Below, piece after piece: positions 1 to 57,088 of a stretch of DNA of 64,000 bases (the first letter of the stretch is position 1; every line of letters begins with the position of its first letter). Where the stretch lies: NCBI RefSeq assembly GCF_000189635.1, contig NW_002476186.1, positions 372,001 to 436,000 on the forward strand. Reading direction: 5' to 3'. The notes beneath the pieces were generated by a model. That model was not told the origin of the DNA, made no database searches, and worked only from the letters and a program-made list of their open reading frames with translations. The translations under genes and the position numbers were made by a program. The stretch comes from Tetrahymena thermophila SB210 (taxonomy: Eukaryota; Ciliophora; Oligohymenophorea; Hymenostomatida; Tetrahymenidae).

Positions 1-1125
1 TTCTGCCAGAAATAATTAATTTCGTCCAGATATATTATCTTTCAACTTATTTTAGCAGATTCAATAAAATCAGCATAATCAAAAATAAAATCATCAAAAG
101 AACTTATAAAAGCAGCAAGAGCACTCATAATTCAATGATTTAGTTGGAATAAATAGTAATCTAATTAAATAAAACTACTCATTACAAAACAATAAAGTAG
201 GTTTATCACTTAAAAATAAGTTTTAAAACAAAAATACTAATATCTCTTCACTAAGTTCTAAATTATTTACCTAAATTAAAGAAAGAATTTTTATGAGTTG
301 ATTTAAAGAAAGAAATTAATCATTTCTCAACAATTATAATAAAATTTATAAAAATGAAAATATTGATTAAATACATTATTTTGTAAATATAAAAATCATC
401 AATTTATTTTAATTTACTTCTTTACTAACTTATTACTTCAAAAATAAAATTTTTTATTAAAAATTTTACTAAAATCTCTTCAAAATTAAAATAATAATTT
501 TTCTTGTTTTAATTTGAAAATTTTTGAATATGAAAGTTAAGTTATATTGATATTCAATCGCATTTTGCATTTTAACTTCTAATAAAAATATTAAAATTAA
601 TATTTTATGTTCATTTTAAAATGTTTTTTTTTCTCTCAAAAGACTTTACAAATTAACAAGGTTTAACGATAGCTAAATAAATATTTCTTTAATATTATAG
701 ATTTTGCTATTTATTAAATTTTATATAAAATAATATTGAAGCACTTTTTTTTTAGTTGGAGAAATATCTTTACAAATTATATATGAATTATTATTTAATA
801 ATTCAGTTTATAATATAAAATAATTTAATAGCCAAACAAGATATTTTAAAAAAATAGAAGTGTAAATAAATGTTTAGTGATTAAACTTACTCAAGCTTAT
901 TTAAAGATAGAATATATTTATTTAAATTTATAAGTCCTCATTTGTATTATTTTTTTATTTATTAACAATATTTCATAACTGTTCTTCTTTAATTAAAACT
1001 ATCAAAAATCTTTTAAAGGATTTTTAATTTATTTATAATCATTTAGTTAATATAATTAAAAGCAGCAGCATAAATAGTATTAGCTAGCATTAAAATAAAG
1101 TGATAAATTTAAGCAATTATTTAAG
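1..1125. other. AT-rich region without a supported gene
   Basis: Very AT-rich sequence with poly-A/T tracts. A short minus-strand frame begins at 128 and runs for about 28 codons to a TGA; it could be the first exon of a gene continuing off the left edge, but nothing else supports it. The remainder is taken as spacer plus the promoter of the enolase-like gene starting at 1126. Confidence 0.5.
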
Positions 1126-3321
1126 ATGTCTTCTTCTCCTTATCTAAGCTAAGAGCTTAAGGATTACATGAAATAAAATAATGTATAAAAATAAATAATA
1201 TAAATATAGTAGAATATGAAATAAAAAATTTGTTTCTAAATTAATGCAATATTAAATCATAAAATAAGATCGAGGAAACTTTGTCAAAGATCGTTAATCA
1301 GCTTCTTCGTGGAAAGTACTCCGACCCTTACGCATTTATGATGAACGAATTTGGAAAGGTTTTTCATTTTTAAGAATGTTATGATAAATATAAAAATATA
1401 TATTAAATGGTTAATAGCTTGCAAAAAATGATATCACTATTCTCTCAGTTGTCCCATACCAGACATTAAATATAAATAGTTTACCTTCAATAAAAGTAAT
1501 TTGATATGTTTTATAGAGCTTTTTTAGAAAACTTTGTTTGTGAATAAAAATAGTTATAATACACAGTAGAGTATAAGTAAAAAGAATACAAAATAGAAAC
1601 ATCTTTTTAGTTTGGCTAAGCTTCAGAAACAGTAGTACCTTTATAGTAAACTATAAAATTTATAAACGTACATAAATTTTATGCAATTTTTAAATATTTA
1701 TTTAGTGACAACATAAATGAAGTAGATAGTGGAAAAGGTGTTAGTAATGCTTTAGAATTTATTAAAAGGTAAAAAACATGCTACTTCTATAAGCAATTTA
1801 ATGTTTAATTGTATTTATAAATAGTAAGATAAACCCAATTTTGAATAAGAAAAGTGCCAGAGATTAAAAATAAATAGATGAATAATTAACATAGCTATAT
1901 GAAGCTAATGAAAAAGTAAAAATTAAGACTAATATATTATTTCACACAAATTATTTTCTTAATAGAAAGGTATCAATGCTATTCAAACAGTCTCTTATAG
2001 TTTAAATTAGGTTATTGCTTAAATAGAAAAAATTTAACCTTATGAAGTTATAAGATAATTAAGTGGGTTTGAAGGTGAATTCTAGCACCCTAAAATTATG
2101 GTTAATCTTTTATAAGGAAGCAAATTAGTTGGAGTTAAATGTAAGATTTACAAGTTCTTACTTATTGTAGATAAATACGAAAATGGAAAATAGTTACTTG
2201 ATATAGTTAGTCAGATTACAGGTAATATTAAGAAGACTATAACTAGTGGTAAATTGGGAGAAGCTGCCTTGAAGTATCACACTGATGGAACTTTTATTGT
2301 AACTGTAGATTCAATAAATGACAATATGAAGATGATAGAAGAGGCAATTAATAAAACTCCATACAAAGATAATGTCTATGTTGGTTTGAATCTTATGGCA
2401 GATAACCTCTACCTTCCAGATAAAAAATTATATGAGTTAGAAAATCCAAAGCAACTCATGGATCCTACTTAACTAGTAAAATTATTTTTTTATTTTGATC
2501 TAAAGTCACAAAAATTTTATTAAATAGGCTGACTTTTTGTTAAAGTTGTGCACTGATAAGCCAAGTAATTTTAAAAATATAAATAAATAAATATTTCTGA
2601 GCATTTTAATAATTAATAGTAATAAAGTATATTTAAGATCCTATAAAGAACGATGATTTAGAAGGGTGGAGTAAGTTTATGGTAAGATTCATAAAGTTTA
2701 ATTCATTTATTAAAGCAAATTTTATAAATTAAGGCTAAGTTTTAAGGAAAAAATATCTAGATTGCCAGTAGCTTTTTATACTCAACAATCAATAGGATTA
2801 AAGAAGCTAGTATAGAGTCTGATAAAGATTCTAATCCATGTAATAAATTTTATTTAAACTATATATAGTTTTATATTTAATTTTGAATAATTAAGAAATG
2901 TCTGAAAATGAAATAAATTCAGCAAATGCTAAAAAATTTGACCTGCATTGTGCTCACTATAGACCATTTGAATATCCGACACTCAGCAACTTCTTAGAAA
3001 TAGCCAAAATGTCTCTTAACAAAGTACTTTTTATAAAATATTTCTATATATTTATTCATTCATTTTAATAACTTTTTTTCCATAGAAAAATAGTACTGCA
3101 GTTATCATTTAAGAAAATTTAGAAGAATTCACTGACACCACTATAGTAGATTTGGCTGTAAAAAATATTTCCCAAAATAATGAAATAAATTCTTTTTTTA
3201 AATAATATTTAGTTTGGGTTGAAGAATTGTTGGTTGAATCTAGTGTCTCCTTTTAAGTTAGAGAGACTATTAAAATATAATAGGATTATCGAAATTTTAG
3301 AATTAGAAAAAATAAAGCATG
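1126..3321 (+). CDS. ENO4: Enolase-superfamily protein, ENO4-like, probably catalytically altered
   Basis: Spliced gene of about ten short exons. Exon 1 is 1126-1182 (19 codons) and exon 2 is 1269-1358. The N-terminus carries a DPYAFMMNEFGK segment resembling a dimerisation/docking motif. Enolase-like blocks follow in order: SGKGVSNALEFI; INPILNKKSARDQKQID; KLGEAALKYHTDGTF; YLPDKKLYELENPKQL; KYIQDPIKNDDLEGWSKFM, which matches the enolase (V)SIEDPFDQDDWEAWSKF block and keeps the acidic metal-site region; and a last exon with TAVIIQENLEEFTDTTIVDLA. That last block sits where enolases have SHRSGETEDTFIADL, so the active-site His is lost, and the KVNQIG lysine block is not recognisable either. 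The long form and these losses fit ENO4, a sperm/flagellar enolase-like protein, rather than a glycolytic enzyme. Exon ends in 1419-1760 and 2690-3080 are approximate. The stop is TGA at 3319-3321. Confidence 0.72.
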
Positions 3322-3432
3322 ATTCTAGTTGAATTAAAAATATATTTATATTTATTTTATTGATTTGCAAATCTTTTTTGTTGTTGTTTCTCTAAGCGTT
3401 TAATAATTAACTTTTTAAAAATTAATTAATTC

Positions 3433-3451
3433 CATTCATTCATTCATTCAT
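3433..3451. repeat. (CATT)n microsatellite
   Basis: Short run of CATT repeats in the spacer after the enolase-like gene; the same motif recurs at about 4087-4134. Confidence 0.8.
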
Positions 3452-4086
3452 GTCAACTTTCAAAATGATTTTTCTGAAAATTTTAATAAAATAATATCCT
3501 TATAAAAATATTTTTTATTTTTTTGAATGAAAAAAATCTTCAAAATTAAATAATCAAGTAAAAAATTGGATTAAATTTTGTATATAAATAGTTGGTTAAT
3601 TAATTTAACAGTTTTGAATTGAAATATTTTATAAAAAAATAAAAATTGTTTTGGTTTAGATTAACTTGGCATATAAATTTTACTATTGAGTAATAGCTAG
3701 ATAGCTAGCTTATAGACTAAATAATTAATGATATAACAAATCTTATTAATACTTAACTAGAATATATAAATTAAAATCTAAAATATTATAATAAATAATT
3801 CTTGTGAATATTTAAAAATAAATAAAATTAAAAATAAAATCTAATATATTATTATAAATAATTCTTTTTAAATAATTAATATTTGTTCATCAATAAAAAA
3901 CAATTCGATTTATTTTTCTGATAAATTAGTATTCACCATTATATAAATTTACAACATTTTTGTAAAAAGAATTTATTATAAGAATTATTTATAATAAAAT
4001 ATTAACATAATAATTTTTTCTTTCATTTTTATTTTAAGGCTTTATTACTTGAGAGGGACAATTAATTATATTTTTCATAACAATGG

Positions 4087-4134
4087 CATTCATTCGTTCA
4101 TTCATTCATTCATTCATTCATTCATTCATTCATT
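4087..4134. repeat. (CATT)n microsatellite, about 12 units
   Basis: Nearly pure CATT tetranucleotide array with one CGTT variant, in non-coding spacer about 410 bases upstream of the P2 start codon. Confidence 0.9.
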
Positions 4135-50477: not shown

Positions 50478-51665
50478 ATGGGAAATAATTGCAATTGCAT
50501 TGGAAAAACATTTGATGAAAATGTCTGTTAAACATAAGATTCCAATGGAAGTGTTAGAATACAAGCATATCCCAATAGAAAAATATTTGATGATCACTTA
50601 TCTAGTCGTCGCTTTACTTTGGAACCCATCAAGAGTAGTAGTTCTATCGCTCAACTAAGAAGTGAATCAACTAAAAGAAGTGCTAATGTTCATAATCATG
50701 AAAATTTTTCATTAGCTACTGAAGCCGTAACAGTTTAATCTGGACAATAAAACCCTATTACTTTTAGCATATTTTAATCTTCTCCCCCTCGCAGATAAAA
50801 TGAACACACTAAAAGTATAAATAGCAATTGCAGTCCTATTAACTCTAATAGAAAAAGATCAAGCAAAATATTCAGTAATCCTTAATCTACTGCTATTCAA
50901 ACTCCATGCTCTTCTAGAAATTAAACTATACATGAGAATTATACTCCTAATATTCAAACCTAAGATAAAATTCTTTTAGATGTTAATCATAATCATCTTG
51001 CTCCACCTAATTTAGAAAAAGCTGAGTGGAGTCTTAGCCCTGTAATATCTCCAAGAAGTAAATTCTTCTCAAACAAAGCAGCTCCAATTTAAAAAACATT
51101 CGATGGAGTATAATGCGATATGTCAGAGGTGATTGATTTCAAATAACAACAAGCTGATTAGAATGATAACAAATCAAGCTTTACAACAAATGTTTTTGAA
51201 ATAGAGTTTACTTAAAATTCTGAACTTGAAATTGCTTTCAAAGAGCTTGAGAACAAGTAAAAATTTACATTGAATCACTTTGCAAAGATAACAGAATTAA
51301 CTTTAGAAGATGATGAAGAAGATACTTCAAGAGCTAAGGAATAAAAGCTTTACACTTCTACTATAAGAGAATAGACTTCTCTTACCTACAGCGATAGCTC
51401 CATCTGCAATATATCCTCCTTAACACCAGAGTAAATGCAAATTGTAAAAAGCAAATACTAATAATTTGAGAGTAGTAATTCTGATAAATCAACTTAGATA
51501 TTTGATAACTAAAGCTATAATTATGCTATTAAGATCATTAATTCAAGAGATTAAGTTTTTTCTCCATAAAGATTGAGCACAGTTAGAGCATCTGACAGTA
51601 TATTAAGTGAAACAATAAAGAGAAATTCCAATCCTAAAAATAACAGCAATTTAGTAATCGCATGA
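50478..51665 (+). CDS. Orphan protein with probable N-terminal dual acylation (MGNNCNC)
   Basis: Intronless frame of 396 codons (395 residues), TGA at 51663-51665. The ATG at 50478 gives MGNNCNCIGKTF: Gly2 is an N-myristoylation site candidate, and Cys5 and Cys7 are placed for palmitoylation, as in many membrane-tethered signalling proteins. The rest is Ser/Asn/Thr-rich and probably disordered. It has several SP/TP sites (SSPPRR, SLSPVISPRS, VFSPQR) and a more ordered helical segment, FELENKQKFTLNHFAKITEL-like, at about 250-300. No known domain was found. A role as a membrane-anchored, phosphorylated adaptor is inference. An overlapping frame at 50428-50658 is in another phase and is not real. 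Confidence 0.8.
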
Positions 51666-52103: not shown

Positions 52104-54255
52104 TCAAAATTAGGAAAAAACTTCTTTGCAGTTTAAGGGAAACTCAGATTTACACTACTCGTGAATAAATTGATCAGTATCTTCTATTGAAATTTAATTA
52201 TTTCTACATACTAGGCAGTTTAGAAGAAACTAATCTTTTTCTAAGCTAGTGTGATTATACTCGTTTACAAAGAAATATAAAGCATGACAATCTTGCTAGT
52301 ATTATTTAAAAGGTTCTATATTGAGGGGACTAAAAAATTACCATTTAAAATGATAGACTATTTAATTTTCTTTTGTTTACTCTAAAAAAATAATTGAGCA
52401 TCCTTTCAAAATTATTGATTAGAGTTTAACAGGGCCTAAACATCTTTTACAGCTAATTATTATAAAATAAAATTAATTTCATTTAAAAATTTAAATATTT
52501 ACTTTAATGTTTTCAAAGTTTGGTCATTAGCAAATTTTATTAAATGATTTCCTAGTCCTTTTTTATAAACTATTTCACTATCTGTGTATTTTTATTTACA
52601 ATACTAGTTAACGCAAGAACAAACAAGATTTATTCCTTCACAATACACATTATTTTCTTCTTCATCACTTTACATCATATTTTTACTGTCTATTTTTTAA
52701 TTAATCCTGTAAAGCATATTTATGCTATTCGACTTTTATGTATCCAGGTTAGAATTTTCAGCAATATGTTTCTATCTTAGACTTTCTTTAAAAATATTTT
52801 CTTCAACAGATATGCGACTTCCAACACATATCTTGTAATCTGTAAGATTTTTCGAGTCTTCAAGTAGCCTTTTAACATTTAAAGAAAAATATTTAAAACT
52901 TTCTAAAATCAATAATTTATTGAAAAGATTTAAATTACGATCCATTAAAATACATAAGTTGGTCAAGACAATCAATTCCAATTTTGTTTTCTAAGATTGT
53001 TTTTAATCCAAAAACTGTCTCTTTAAAATCTATTTTGAGTGGAATACTTTATTTAAGTCTTGTAACAATAACTATTTCCCCTTAATATTAACAAACAGCA
53101 TATAACTTCTTAGTATCTTCAGTAAATATTAGATCTTTAAACAGCATTTTACTTTTTATTTAAGTCCTATTAATATAATTTAAAAATTATAAGCTTAAAC
53201 TTAAATAAAAAATCAATCTGTTACAGATCCATGTAAGCAAAGCAAGAAATATAAGGATTATCTAATATAATTTAAGCTATTCTTCGAATTAAATCAATAG
53301 AATCATTTTCATAGACTTTAATTGAAGTTACCATTTCATAATCTTAAGCATCTTGAGTTAGTAGAGGCTCATTTATTTCATCTTCTTCAATTAAAACTAA
53401 CTAAACCTCATATTATCCAGAAGTAATATCTCTTATAACTAAAATATCTTAATCTTTAATTTATTCCATTTATTCTACTATTTAGTTATTCTAATTTAGC
53501 AATATAAATTAGTTTATAGGCGTATTTAATTTTTCTGTAATTTGCTACTTAAGATTCTAAAATGGATTGAGATAAAAAGTTTTTCTTTCTGAGAAATTTT
53601 TTTAATAACAATTGTATGTATGTCCAGGGTATAAGTAAATCTATATTAGTTGTAATACTCTAACTATATTTTTATTACCTTCACATTTCATTCCTAGATC
53701 TGTTAACAAAGCAGACTCATCTTAAAGTAATCTTAAAAATTTTATTATAAAAATAATTATTTTTTAATAGTTTTAAAAGAGGAAATAATATAATTACCTT
53801 CCTTAATATTACAGCTATATTTTTTATTCATTAAGCTATAAACTTTTTGCAATCATCATTCTCAAATCACTTAATCTTTACTATTTTCCCACTACTAAAT
53901 TAGATGTGTGCATTTTTTAATCCTTCGAAAACTAGTATTAAATATCCAGTCCTTCATGGCGTGGTATTGCTGTGAAGTAGAATGTTTTACTTATTTCTAA
54001 TTCATTTAACTCAGTCTTGTAGTTAAAGAATCCTAAATTATCAAATACATTTTCTATATTAGAATCAATCTTATATATGCTTTGTTAATTTTAATAAAAA
54101 TCCTTAGCTTTTGCACAAAGCCACATTAAACTCTTGGATAAATCGCTATTGCTTATGCTCAATGAAAAACTTTCTTTAGGTATATTCTTACAAATAAAAT
54201 AGTAAGCTATTTATTAATCTTCATGACATTCTAATTCTTCTGCACTATTTGTCAT
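52104..54255 (-). CDS. Multi-ubiquitin-like-domain protein with Cys-rich C-terminus
   Basis: Minus-strand gene of five exons, about 640 residues, ATG at 54255 (MTNSAEELECHEDQQIAYYF), TGA at 52106-52104. Several stretches have the ubiquitin-like pattern (strand-turn-strand, helix, then L..F.G..L.D...L.D..I). The clearest are VVGKQQRLSDLRMMIAKSLQ...LQYQGRLLQDESALLTDLG and IPLKIDFKETVFGLKTILEN...LMYFNGSLLEDSKNLTDYKI; both are completed only by splicing. Three weaker candidates lie at the N-terminus, at FQNLKQQITEKLNTPINQF, and at IKVYENDSIDLIRRIAQIIL. No di-Gly end is seen after any domain, so they are not obviously processed. The C-terminal 200 residues have paired cysteines (CSCVNQYC, CKRC, CLVC, H-x-x-x-C), suggesting zinc binding. 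The function may be ubiquitin-pathway scaffolding, but this is not known. Confidence 0.82.
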
Positions 54256-55468
54256 TTTTTTTTTTTTTGAGCTAAAAGTTAAAGAAAGTAAATTTTTTAT
54301 TTTACGCTAAAGTCTTTTTATTATTGTTAAAAAATAATAATTAATAATTTAATCTAGAAAATATCCTAAAATTTCAAATTTTTTTTAATAAAAATTATAG
54401 AATATTTATTTGCCTCCTCAAAATTCAAAATTATAAAAATGAACAATTTATAATTTAATTATATCCATTAATTGAATAAATCTCAACAAATATTTCTTAT
54501 TTATAAAATAATAATTTTTTAATTGATAATTAAAAAATAATTAGATATTTTAAATTATCTGAAACTAAGAAATTTTAAGACTTTAGAAAACTCAAAAATA
54601 GAATATATAAATAAAAAAAAGTTTAAGTTAAATTTTAATTGAATTAAAAGCACAAAGCGGAAATAACTAATTTATTGGTTTCTAAAGTAAAATTTCTTTA
54701 TAAAATCTATTTACCTTATCTCCTCATACAAAATAATCAATCACTACATTTTAAAATAAATCTATATAAATATTTTTATTAATAAAATAAATGTTTTCAA
54801 TTCTTAACCCTATAATTTATAATTGAATTAAATGGTAAAATAATTAATTGAAAGTTGAAGTAAATTTAATAATTATGTTTTGTTTGAAGATAATTATAAT
54901 TAATAAAAGTTAAAAAATTATTTAAAGTGAATTAATATAGATTTATAATTTTTTATAAAAGAAGTATTTTCAAAATTAAAATTTATGCGTGTTCATTTAT
55001 TGTAAATATTTGATGAATTAATTTTGAAATTTTTTTTAAGACTGACTATTTTTAATATGAAATTTACTAGTGTTTAAAGGGATTTTAACTGAGCAGTAAT
55101 AATAAATAATATTATTATTAAACAATAAAAGCAAACGAAATGTAAAATTAAATTAATTATATAAATGAAACAATATTTTAATGATTTACTTAGATTACTC
55201 CACCTTATTAATAGTTTTAAATGGAATATCAAATATTAAAAATTTTTATTAATTTTTTATACAAAAACGATTTGTTTGCTTTGTTGAGTTTAATTTATTA
55301 TCAATTTAATATCAAACACTCATAAAAATCAAAATAAACTCATAAATAAAGCAGTCAGACAACAATAAATAATTGATAGAATTTTGTTTGTCTCTAAAAT
55401 ATAATTGAAACAAATTTGTAACGTTAATAATCAAATAAAAGTCTTTTAGATAATTTTCCATATATAGC
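54256..55468. other. Intergenic spacer between divergent genes
   Basis: 1.2 kb AT-rich region holding the promoters of the multi-Ubl and phosphodiesterase genes. No coding signal. Confidence 0.6.
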
Positions 55469-57088
55469 ATGAATATGTATGGATAAAAGCTTAATAACTC
55501 GAGTAAATAAGAGAGTCCAAGTAGTAGCTTTCATAGTTCAGATTTTATTAGATTAGTTTAGGATAATATTTTAGAAGATAAAGAAGTAGAAGAAGTAAAA
55601 ATATTAACTTATAACCTCTTTATGAGACCACCTTTTGTTAAAAATAATGAAGATGATTATAAAAATGAAAGATGCAAGCTTATTATTAAAAATGAAATTC
55701 AAAAATTTGATATAATTTGCTTTCAGGAGCTCTTTAGATTGTTTTCTAATCGCAGACATAAAATGGTCTATTCTGCTATTAAAAAGGGATTTTTATATCA
55801 TGTAAGTTCACCTTAGCCTAGCTTTTTTAAAAGTTATTTTGTTGACGCAGGGCTTACTATTTTAAGTAAATATCCTATTGTTGAGTCATGCTTTAGACCT
55901 TTTAGATATGGTATATTAGCTGACGGACTTTGCTAAAAAGGAGTGTTGTATGCAAAAATTAGAGTAAATGAAAGGCATATACATGTTTTAAATACTCACA
56001 CACAAGCAAGCTACAATACAAATGAAAAAGAAATTGTAATATTTTTAAAAAAAACCTAGATAATTTTCTATGAATTGCTATTTTTTTAGATAGTTTAATA
56101 AATAATTTCAATTTTTTAGGTCATTCTAATTTTATTATATTTGATAAGAAATAAACAGTTATAGCTCGGTTAGATTAGTTTGTGGAGATGAGAAAAATAC
56201 TTGAAGATTGCTTGAAGTAATATGGATTTGATAGAGGAGATATTTGCATATTTGCTGGAGATTTTAATGTTGATTCTAATCACCCTATACATCCTATTAG
56301 ATTCTTAAATAAGCAGTAGGATTTAAAGGTAGAAATAATTCATTTTATAAATTTACTTTCTTAAAATTAAAATAAAGCTTTAAATAAAATTAAATTAATA
56401 TTTTAAGGAAATACTTGGCATAAATGATACGTAATAGCATTTTGATGAGTATAAAGGGCTAATTGATATATTATCTTGTAAAGGGAAAGACATAGTTTAT
56501 GATGTTGGAAGAGTATTTGATTAAATTTTTAATTTAATTAAAGTAAAAAATTATTTTTAAAATACTTAAAATAAAATTTTTAGACTTCTAATAGTGGTAA
56601 TCCTCCAATTACATTTGCAGATGTTTATCAAGATTAAAATGGTGAAATCTAACCTTTAGAAACGGCATTAACTCATTAATGCGATTTGAAAAGTTTATAA
56701 TCTTTAGACTATATTATGCACATAATACCTAACGGATTATTAGCAGATTTCCAAAATAAATTAAGCTTTTCAAATAACTAATAAAGAAGTAAATTTGATA
56801 GTAATTTAAATCAAACTTTTAAAGGTGGGTATTCTTACTAACTTAGTAATAACAAACTGATGCAAAATTAATCTAAAAAACTATCAGATGTAATAATTGT
56901 CTTTATTGAATCATTAATTAATTAAGATATTATTATTAAAATTAATTTATTTTATATTTTTAAATTAAAAGAAAAATTTTGTTGTGGACTTTTCTCGTTC
57001 TAAAGTAGAAAAATTTTTTGTATAAGGCCAAAAATTCACATAACTATCAGATCATTATGGAGTATCGTGTGTATTAAAATTCAAGTGA
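55469..57088 (+). CDS. Neutral-sphingomyelinase-like endonuclease/exonuclease/phosphatase-fold enzyme
   Basis: Spliced gene of five exons from MNMYGQKLNNSSKQESPSSS to TGA at 57086-57088. The EEP-fold active-site blocks are all present: ILTYNLFMRPP (Asn), IICFQELF (metal-binding Glu), DAGLTILSKYPI, LNTHTQAS (His), FAGDFNVDSN (Asp/Asn) and LSDHYGVS (catalytic Asp-His). The KGVLYAKI and ADGL context is close to neutral sphingomyelinases, which cleave sphingomyelin to ceramide and phosphocholine; a phosphoinositide phosphatase is less likely. No transmembrane anchor or signal peptide is visible, so it is probably cytosolic or peripheral. Introns are at about 56037-56120, 56330-56406, 56546-56581 and 56891-56970; removing them keeps the frame. 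A second in-frame ATG at 55475 could serve as start. Confidence 0.9.

Follow-up and report, generated by a model that had tools for sequence, protein, structure and literature searches.

RBBP6/Mpe1 proteins carry, in this order, a DWNN ubiquitin-like (Ubl) domain, a zinc knuckle and a RING, and Parkin and HOIL-1L consist of a Ubl plus an RBR. Ubl domains often dock to the proteasome or to other ubiquitin readers, and the RING recruits E2. In ciliates, the available text of PMC8616854 describes the BUBL genes of Tetrahymena, which contain several diverged Ubl units and intein-like BIL domains, and cites a reference titled for a non-conjugatable BUBL. Here we analyse a gene located in a stretch of 64,000 nucleotides (hereafter the window) of contig NW_002476186.1 of Tetrahymena thermophila SB210. 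Its product, the window protein, combines three Ubl segments with an N-terminal domain and a Cys-rich module that are shared with a family of paralogues in the same genome.

Gene model and ubiquitin-like segments

The features of the gene and of its product are given below in window coordinates, with residue numbers of the translated protein.

52104-54255, minus strand: whole gene in the ciliate code (code 6), 5 exons, 635 aa, based on the splice model, codon score and GC
54255-53798, 53731-53225, 53166-52939, 52868-52503 and 52452-52104, minus strand: the exons
53953-54216, minus strand: block 1, aa 14-101, family N-terminal domain, by sequence not Ubl
53650-53958, minus strand: block 2, aa 100-180, Ubl domain with intron 1 inside
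53416-53667, minus strand: block 3, aa 175-258, weak Ubl domain
53088-53427, minus strand: block 4, aa 255-348, previously read as a fourth Ubl domain, without support
52787-53108, minus strand: block 5, aa 342-425, clear Ubl domain with intron 3 inside and without a Gly-Gly end
52362-52642, minus strand: Cys-rich module, aa 474-550, with intron 4 inside
52107-52226, minus strand: tail at the RING position, aa 596-635, with four of eight ligands (C599, C602, C620 and C628)

The reading frame starts with the ATG at 54255 and ends with the TGA at 52104-52106, TAA and TAG being translated as Gln. All four introns are GT-AG, with lengths of 66, 58, 70 and 50 nt, and their GC content (0.06-0.14) is lower than that of the exons (0.24-0.27). 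Scored with the codon use of 3544 codons taken from the paralogues, the spliced frame has coding-type scores in all of the exons (+16.5 to +50.2), while both shifted sense frames remain below zero and no antisense frame exceeds +12.4. An earlier, sequence-only reading of this DNA gave the coordinates, strand and splicing correctly. Two adjacent reading frames lie on the plus strand, one at 55409-56035 with an endonuclease/exonuclease/phosphatase match of 30.3 bits (cut-off 24.5) and the other, on the opposite side of the gene, at 50481-51665 and without any Pfam match.

As a whole, the window protein matches Pfam ubiquitin with 47 bits (E 2.1e-12; cut-off 25.4 bits) and Pfam Rad60-SLD with 28.4 bits. 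The sequence-only reading had divided it into five Ubl blocks, two of them following the ubiquitin pattern closely. We scored the blocks and their shuffles with a profile of 16 Ubl domains of the T. thermophila genome, from which a 17th sequence was left out. Block 5 is the clearest, with 34.4 bits (E 1.9e-8) in Pfam ubiquitin as the piece aa 342-427 and 33.1 bits in the own-genome profile, above every one of 500 shuffles (493 scored). Block 2, taken as the piece aa 96-183, reaches 20.8 bits in Pfam ubiquitin, which is below the cut-off and nearly equalled by PB1 (19.9); its own-genome score of 19.0 bits exceeds the best shuffle (16.6; 500 shuffles, 497 scored) by a slim margin. Block 3 scores 15.1 bits against a best shuffle of 10.5 (500 shuffles, 499 scored), and 11.3 bits against 7.3 for the best of 500 shuffles when a profile of the second segment of the paralogues is used. 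The Ubl score of block 1 (1.4 bits) is reached by 114 of its 489 scored shuffles and that of block 4 by 63 of 497, and both blocks were therefore rejected as Ubl by sequence. Pfam scans of the pieces aa 1-100, 177-259 and 254-349 gave no ubiquitin-family match, and block 4 has no Pfam match at all.

Because only blocks 2, 3 and 5 exceed all of their shuffles, three of the five proposed Ubl blocks are retained; of the two segments regarded as close to ubiquitin, the last one stands and the other is weaker. Segments 2 and 3 of the paralogues score low as well in the own-genome profile (3.9-13.6 and 1.1-2.5 bits). The dipeptide GG is absent from all 635 residues, in agreement with the earlier statements that no Ubl block ends in Gly-Gly and that the protein is not a normal polyubiquitin precursor.

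Paralogues in the same genome and the C-terminal RING position

A Pfam ubiquitin search of the 101-Mb genome gave 82 matches. We read 18 loci covering 26 of these matches; the other 56, polyubiquitin-like units on contigs C82, C129, C135, C157 and C169, were left out. Of the 82 matches, 42 lie within ~19.4 kb (G000 C169:503875-523260). The genome contains at least six paralogues of the window protein, five of which (L025a, L025b, L030, L031 and L037) come from the loci read and one (L062) from a later search. Their architecture consists of the N-terminal domain, the Cys-rich module and a RING-like C-terminal end, each being encoded by one ORF across its domains, while the window gene has its four introns. 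Ubiquitin-family domains are present in five of the six, L062 having no such match, and Arg-Gly-Gly is kept in L030, L031, L025a and L025b and absent from L037 and L062. The architecture of the window protein had been called unusual, a description that does not hold for the N-terminal domain and module shared with these paralogues. Among the literature matches listed, no paper describes this family by title or abstract start.

A direct search of the genome, with the window protein as query, yielded 16 matches, namely its own five exons and 11 at polyubiquitin loci (C169 and C82), and none of the six paralogues; its C-terminus found only itself. An initial motif scan of 19 loci did not pick up the family either. 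Since the direct searches missed all six paralogues, the kinship rests on profiles and not on direct similarity, and identity to the four aligned paralogues is 17-22%. Residues 1-110 of the window protein score 25.1 bits against a profile of the six paralogue N-termini, with an alignment covering residues 15-66, and none of 1000 shuffles reaches this score (best 10.2). A profile made from L030, L031, L025a and L025b only gives 21.1 bits against a best shuffle of 9.4. Profiles built from five of the paralogue N-termini find the sixth above all shuffles in every case, the weakest matches being those of L037 (15.3 against 10.2) and L062 (22.7 against 16.2).

All six paralogues end in the pattern C-x2-C ... 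C ... H ... H-x2-C ... C-x2-C, in which eight candidate RING ligands were assigned by eye from the alignment. The gap after the third ligand is C-x-H in L037 and L062 and C-x6-H in L030, L031, L025a and L025b. When short fragments were scanned, two of the six passed a Pfam RING cut-off, L037 with zf-RING_2 (27.6 bits, cut-off 27.3) and L062 with zf-C3HC4 (26.5, cut-off 21) and zf-RING_UBOX (26.4, cut-off 25.2); the fragments of the other four remained below cut-off at 17.8-20.6 bits. Scanned at full length, not one of the six paralogues passes (zf-RING_2 20.5 bits in L037 and 20.0 bits in L062), and no RING family is listed for L030, L031, L025a and L025b. The C-terminus of L037 also matches a protein on C282 (E 7.2e-4); this is a clear RING-H2 (zf-RING_2 54.7) and was rejected as a family member because it is an ordinary RING-H2 protein.

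In the window protein the four tail cysteines align to C1, C2, C3 and C6 of the RING pattern in this order, and L037 and L062 have the same C3-x7-C6 spacing. Both His and the final Cys pair are missing, which leaves the RING incomplete at four of eight zinc ligands. The tail alone scores 5.8 bits against the RING profile, a value reached by 23 of 1000 composition shuffles and 70 of 1000 Cys-fixed shuffles, and Pfam scans of the whole protein, its pieces and the tail fragment matched no RING family. The top Pfam match of the tail is DUF2116, a 'probable treble clef', which is weak (13.9 bits, cut-off 26.8). As the tail alone is not significantly RING-like, the grounds for reading it as a RING remnant are its position and the order of its Cys, which suggest that it may descend from a RING. 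With four of eight ligands and no RING family match, we consider the window protein as a relative without a RING and not as a full member of the family.

The Cys-rich module in ciliates and bacteria

The final 160 residues of the window protein contain the CxxC pairs C521/C524 and C599/C602 together with C481, C483, C488, C538, C575, C620 and C628, and thus the Cys-rich end with CxxC pairs of the sequence-only reading is present. Part of it is a module for which we aligned ten sequences (the window protein, six ciliate and three bacterial). Five Cys, one Gly and one Asn (C483, C488, C521, C524, C538, G476 and N478 in window numbering) are invariant in all ten. The Cys-rich end probably binds zinc.

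The window module scores 22.7 bits against a profile of its nine relatives, from which it was left out (best shuffle 3.9, Cys-fixed 13.5), and 17.6 bits against a profile of the bacterial sequences only (best shuffle 11.4), with 1000 composition and 1000 Cys-fixed shuffles in each test, one unscored. Against a C-terminal profile of the six paralogues, the last 166 residues reach 11.8 bits after a large composition-bias correction, the best of 1000 composition shuffles being 5.7 and the best of 1000 Cys-fixed shuffles 8.6. All six paralogues are likewise picked up by the profile of bacterial sequences only (E 3.1e-17 to 5.8e-9). No family above cut-off covers the module in Pfam scans of the window protein, the paralogues and the bacterial proteins, or in an NCBIfam scan of one bacterial protein. 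When the PDB was searched with a profile of the module, no match was significant; the best, a NOT4 RING, had an E of 2.1.

In a scan of GTDB genomes with the module and the region after it, 58 pattern matches came up and one relative was confirmed, a contig of a Parachlamydiaceae MAG (L045), on which three neighbouring ORFs each end in the module:

25-3387, 3245-4132 and 4142-5425 of L045: ORFs in which the Cys-rich module is joined to patatin and ankyrin repeats, to Ubl and to a PARP domain

The Ubl protein among them matches Pfam ubiquitin with 45.2 bits, and none of the three has a RING match. A search of 232 Chlamydiota genomes with the ten-sequence alignment yielded 7 with a match at E <= 1e-4, a count that includes this MAG, which had itself contributed three copies to the query. 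The 37 pattern matches in viral contigs (IMG/VR) contained no relative. The proposal that the architecture is ciliate-specific therefore fails for the module, because it is present in the MAG. Ubiquitination-related families in Chlamydiae are the subject of PMC4209131, and the module goes unmentioned in its available text. Because the module accompanies Ubl, PARP and patatin in ORFs of environmental chlamydia, it is a candidate ubiquitin- or ADP-ribosylation-linked zinc domain. In a tree of the module, the window copy pairs with one bacterial copy (80/90) on a branch of 3.89; this branch is very long and the tree was therefore set aside for placement. Given this pairing, loss of the RING from a RING-bearing ancestor is unproven.

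Possible role and comparison with known systems

Our leading interpretation, which we put forward tentatively, links the window protein to a ciliate Ubl-RING family, of which it would be a diverged paralogue acting as a non-catalytic scaffold or competitor. The paralogues, with their eight candidate ligands, are probably RING E3 ligases whose Ubl segments and module may dock substrates, ubiquitin or proteasome partners, and cleavage or conjugation is conceivable for the Arg-Gly-Gly ubiquitin unit of four of them. In the window protein the docking parts appear to be kept, while Gly-Gly and a complete RING are absent. Most likely, then, its role would be non-catalytic: it may serve as a scaffold, or it may compete for the partners of the active paralogues. 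The earlier suggestion of a scaffold is still reasonable for the window protein, given the ligands missing at its RING position. Evidence against this interpretation includes the whole-protein RING scores of the paralogues, the tail-alone score, the direct searches that missed the paralogues, the module tree and the introns of the window gene. Such a family would point to Ubl-containing, RING-ending proteins having expanded in this ciliate.

It is also possible, though we favour it less, that the protein is an adaptor which never had a RING. On this view it would need no more than its Ubl segments and the module, and the tail, although it contains Cys, would be unrelated to a RING. Such an adaptor is consistent with the tail-alone RING score lying within the shuffles, with weak DUF2116 as the best Pfam match of the tail and with the three bacterial proteins that carry the module without a RING match. 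However, the tail cysteines at the RING position follow the order C1, C2, C3, C6, two paralogues have the same C3-x7-C6 spacing, and all six ciliate paralogues found have a RING-like end. A decaying paralogue, that is a pseudogene in the making without a present role, is improbable; the long module branch, the missing motifs and the low identity to the aligned paralogues would fit, but the frame is uninterrupted, all five exons show coding-type codon use, the four introns are clean and seven of seven invariant module positions are retained. That an intact RING is hidden by an error of the gene model or assembly seems very improbable, as the ~450 nt past the stop contain no CxxC in any of the three sense frames. 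A polyubiquitin-like precursor releasing Ubl units, which several tandem Ubl units might suggest, was ruled out as barely credible because Gly-Gly is absent at the unit ends and the units are diverged and uneven.

There is also a broader proposal, which we regard as unlikely but worth stating. The module might be an undescribed ubiquitin-system zinc domain common to protists and chlamydial symbionts, where it is mixed with Ubl, RING, PARP and patatin, and the window protein a member that is inactive by nature and holds active ligase paralogues in check. If this is true, such an inactive protein, present together with active paralogues, would act as a natural regulator.

Among the described systems, RBBP6/Mpe1 is comparable in its domain order, with a Ubl first, then a small zinc domain and then a RING. 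The window protein differs in having neither a DWNN match in Pfam nor a CCHC knuckle pattern (C..C....H....C), and in its incomplete RING; membership was ruled out on the first two grounds. Parkin and HOIL-1L are similar in holding Ubl and zinc domains within a single protein, and RBR membership was ruled out because no RBR/IBR is among the Pfam matches of the window protein. The BUBL genes, as described in the available text cited above, resemble the window gene in that they too come from a ciliate and encode several diverged Ubl units; the window protein has no BIL (intein-like) Pfam match and was therefore excluded from this group. Two other loci of the genome, L026 and L027 (G000 C91, ~841.8 kb and 851.7 kb), each have a long ORF in which Ubl units occur together with intein-like segments; by eye, both look BUBL-like. 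The C-terminal half of L026 matches ubiquitin with 34.0 bits and ART (ADP-ribosyltransferase) with 27.2 bits (cut-off 22.3), with intein/HINT below cut-off. The chlamydial proteins have the module in common with the window protein, and one of them likewise joins a Ubl to it. The paralogues share with the window protein both the N-terminal domain and the Cys-rich module, whereas the eight-ligand RING-like end belongs to the paralogues only.
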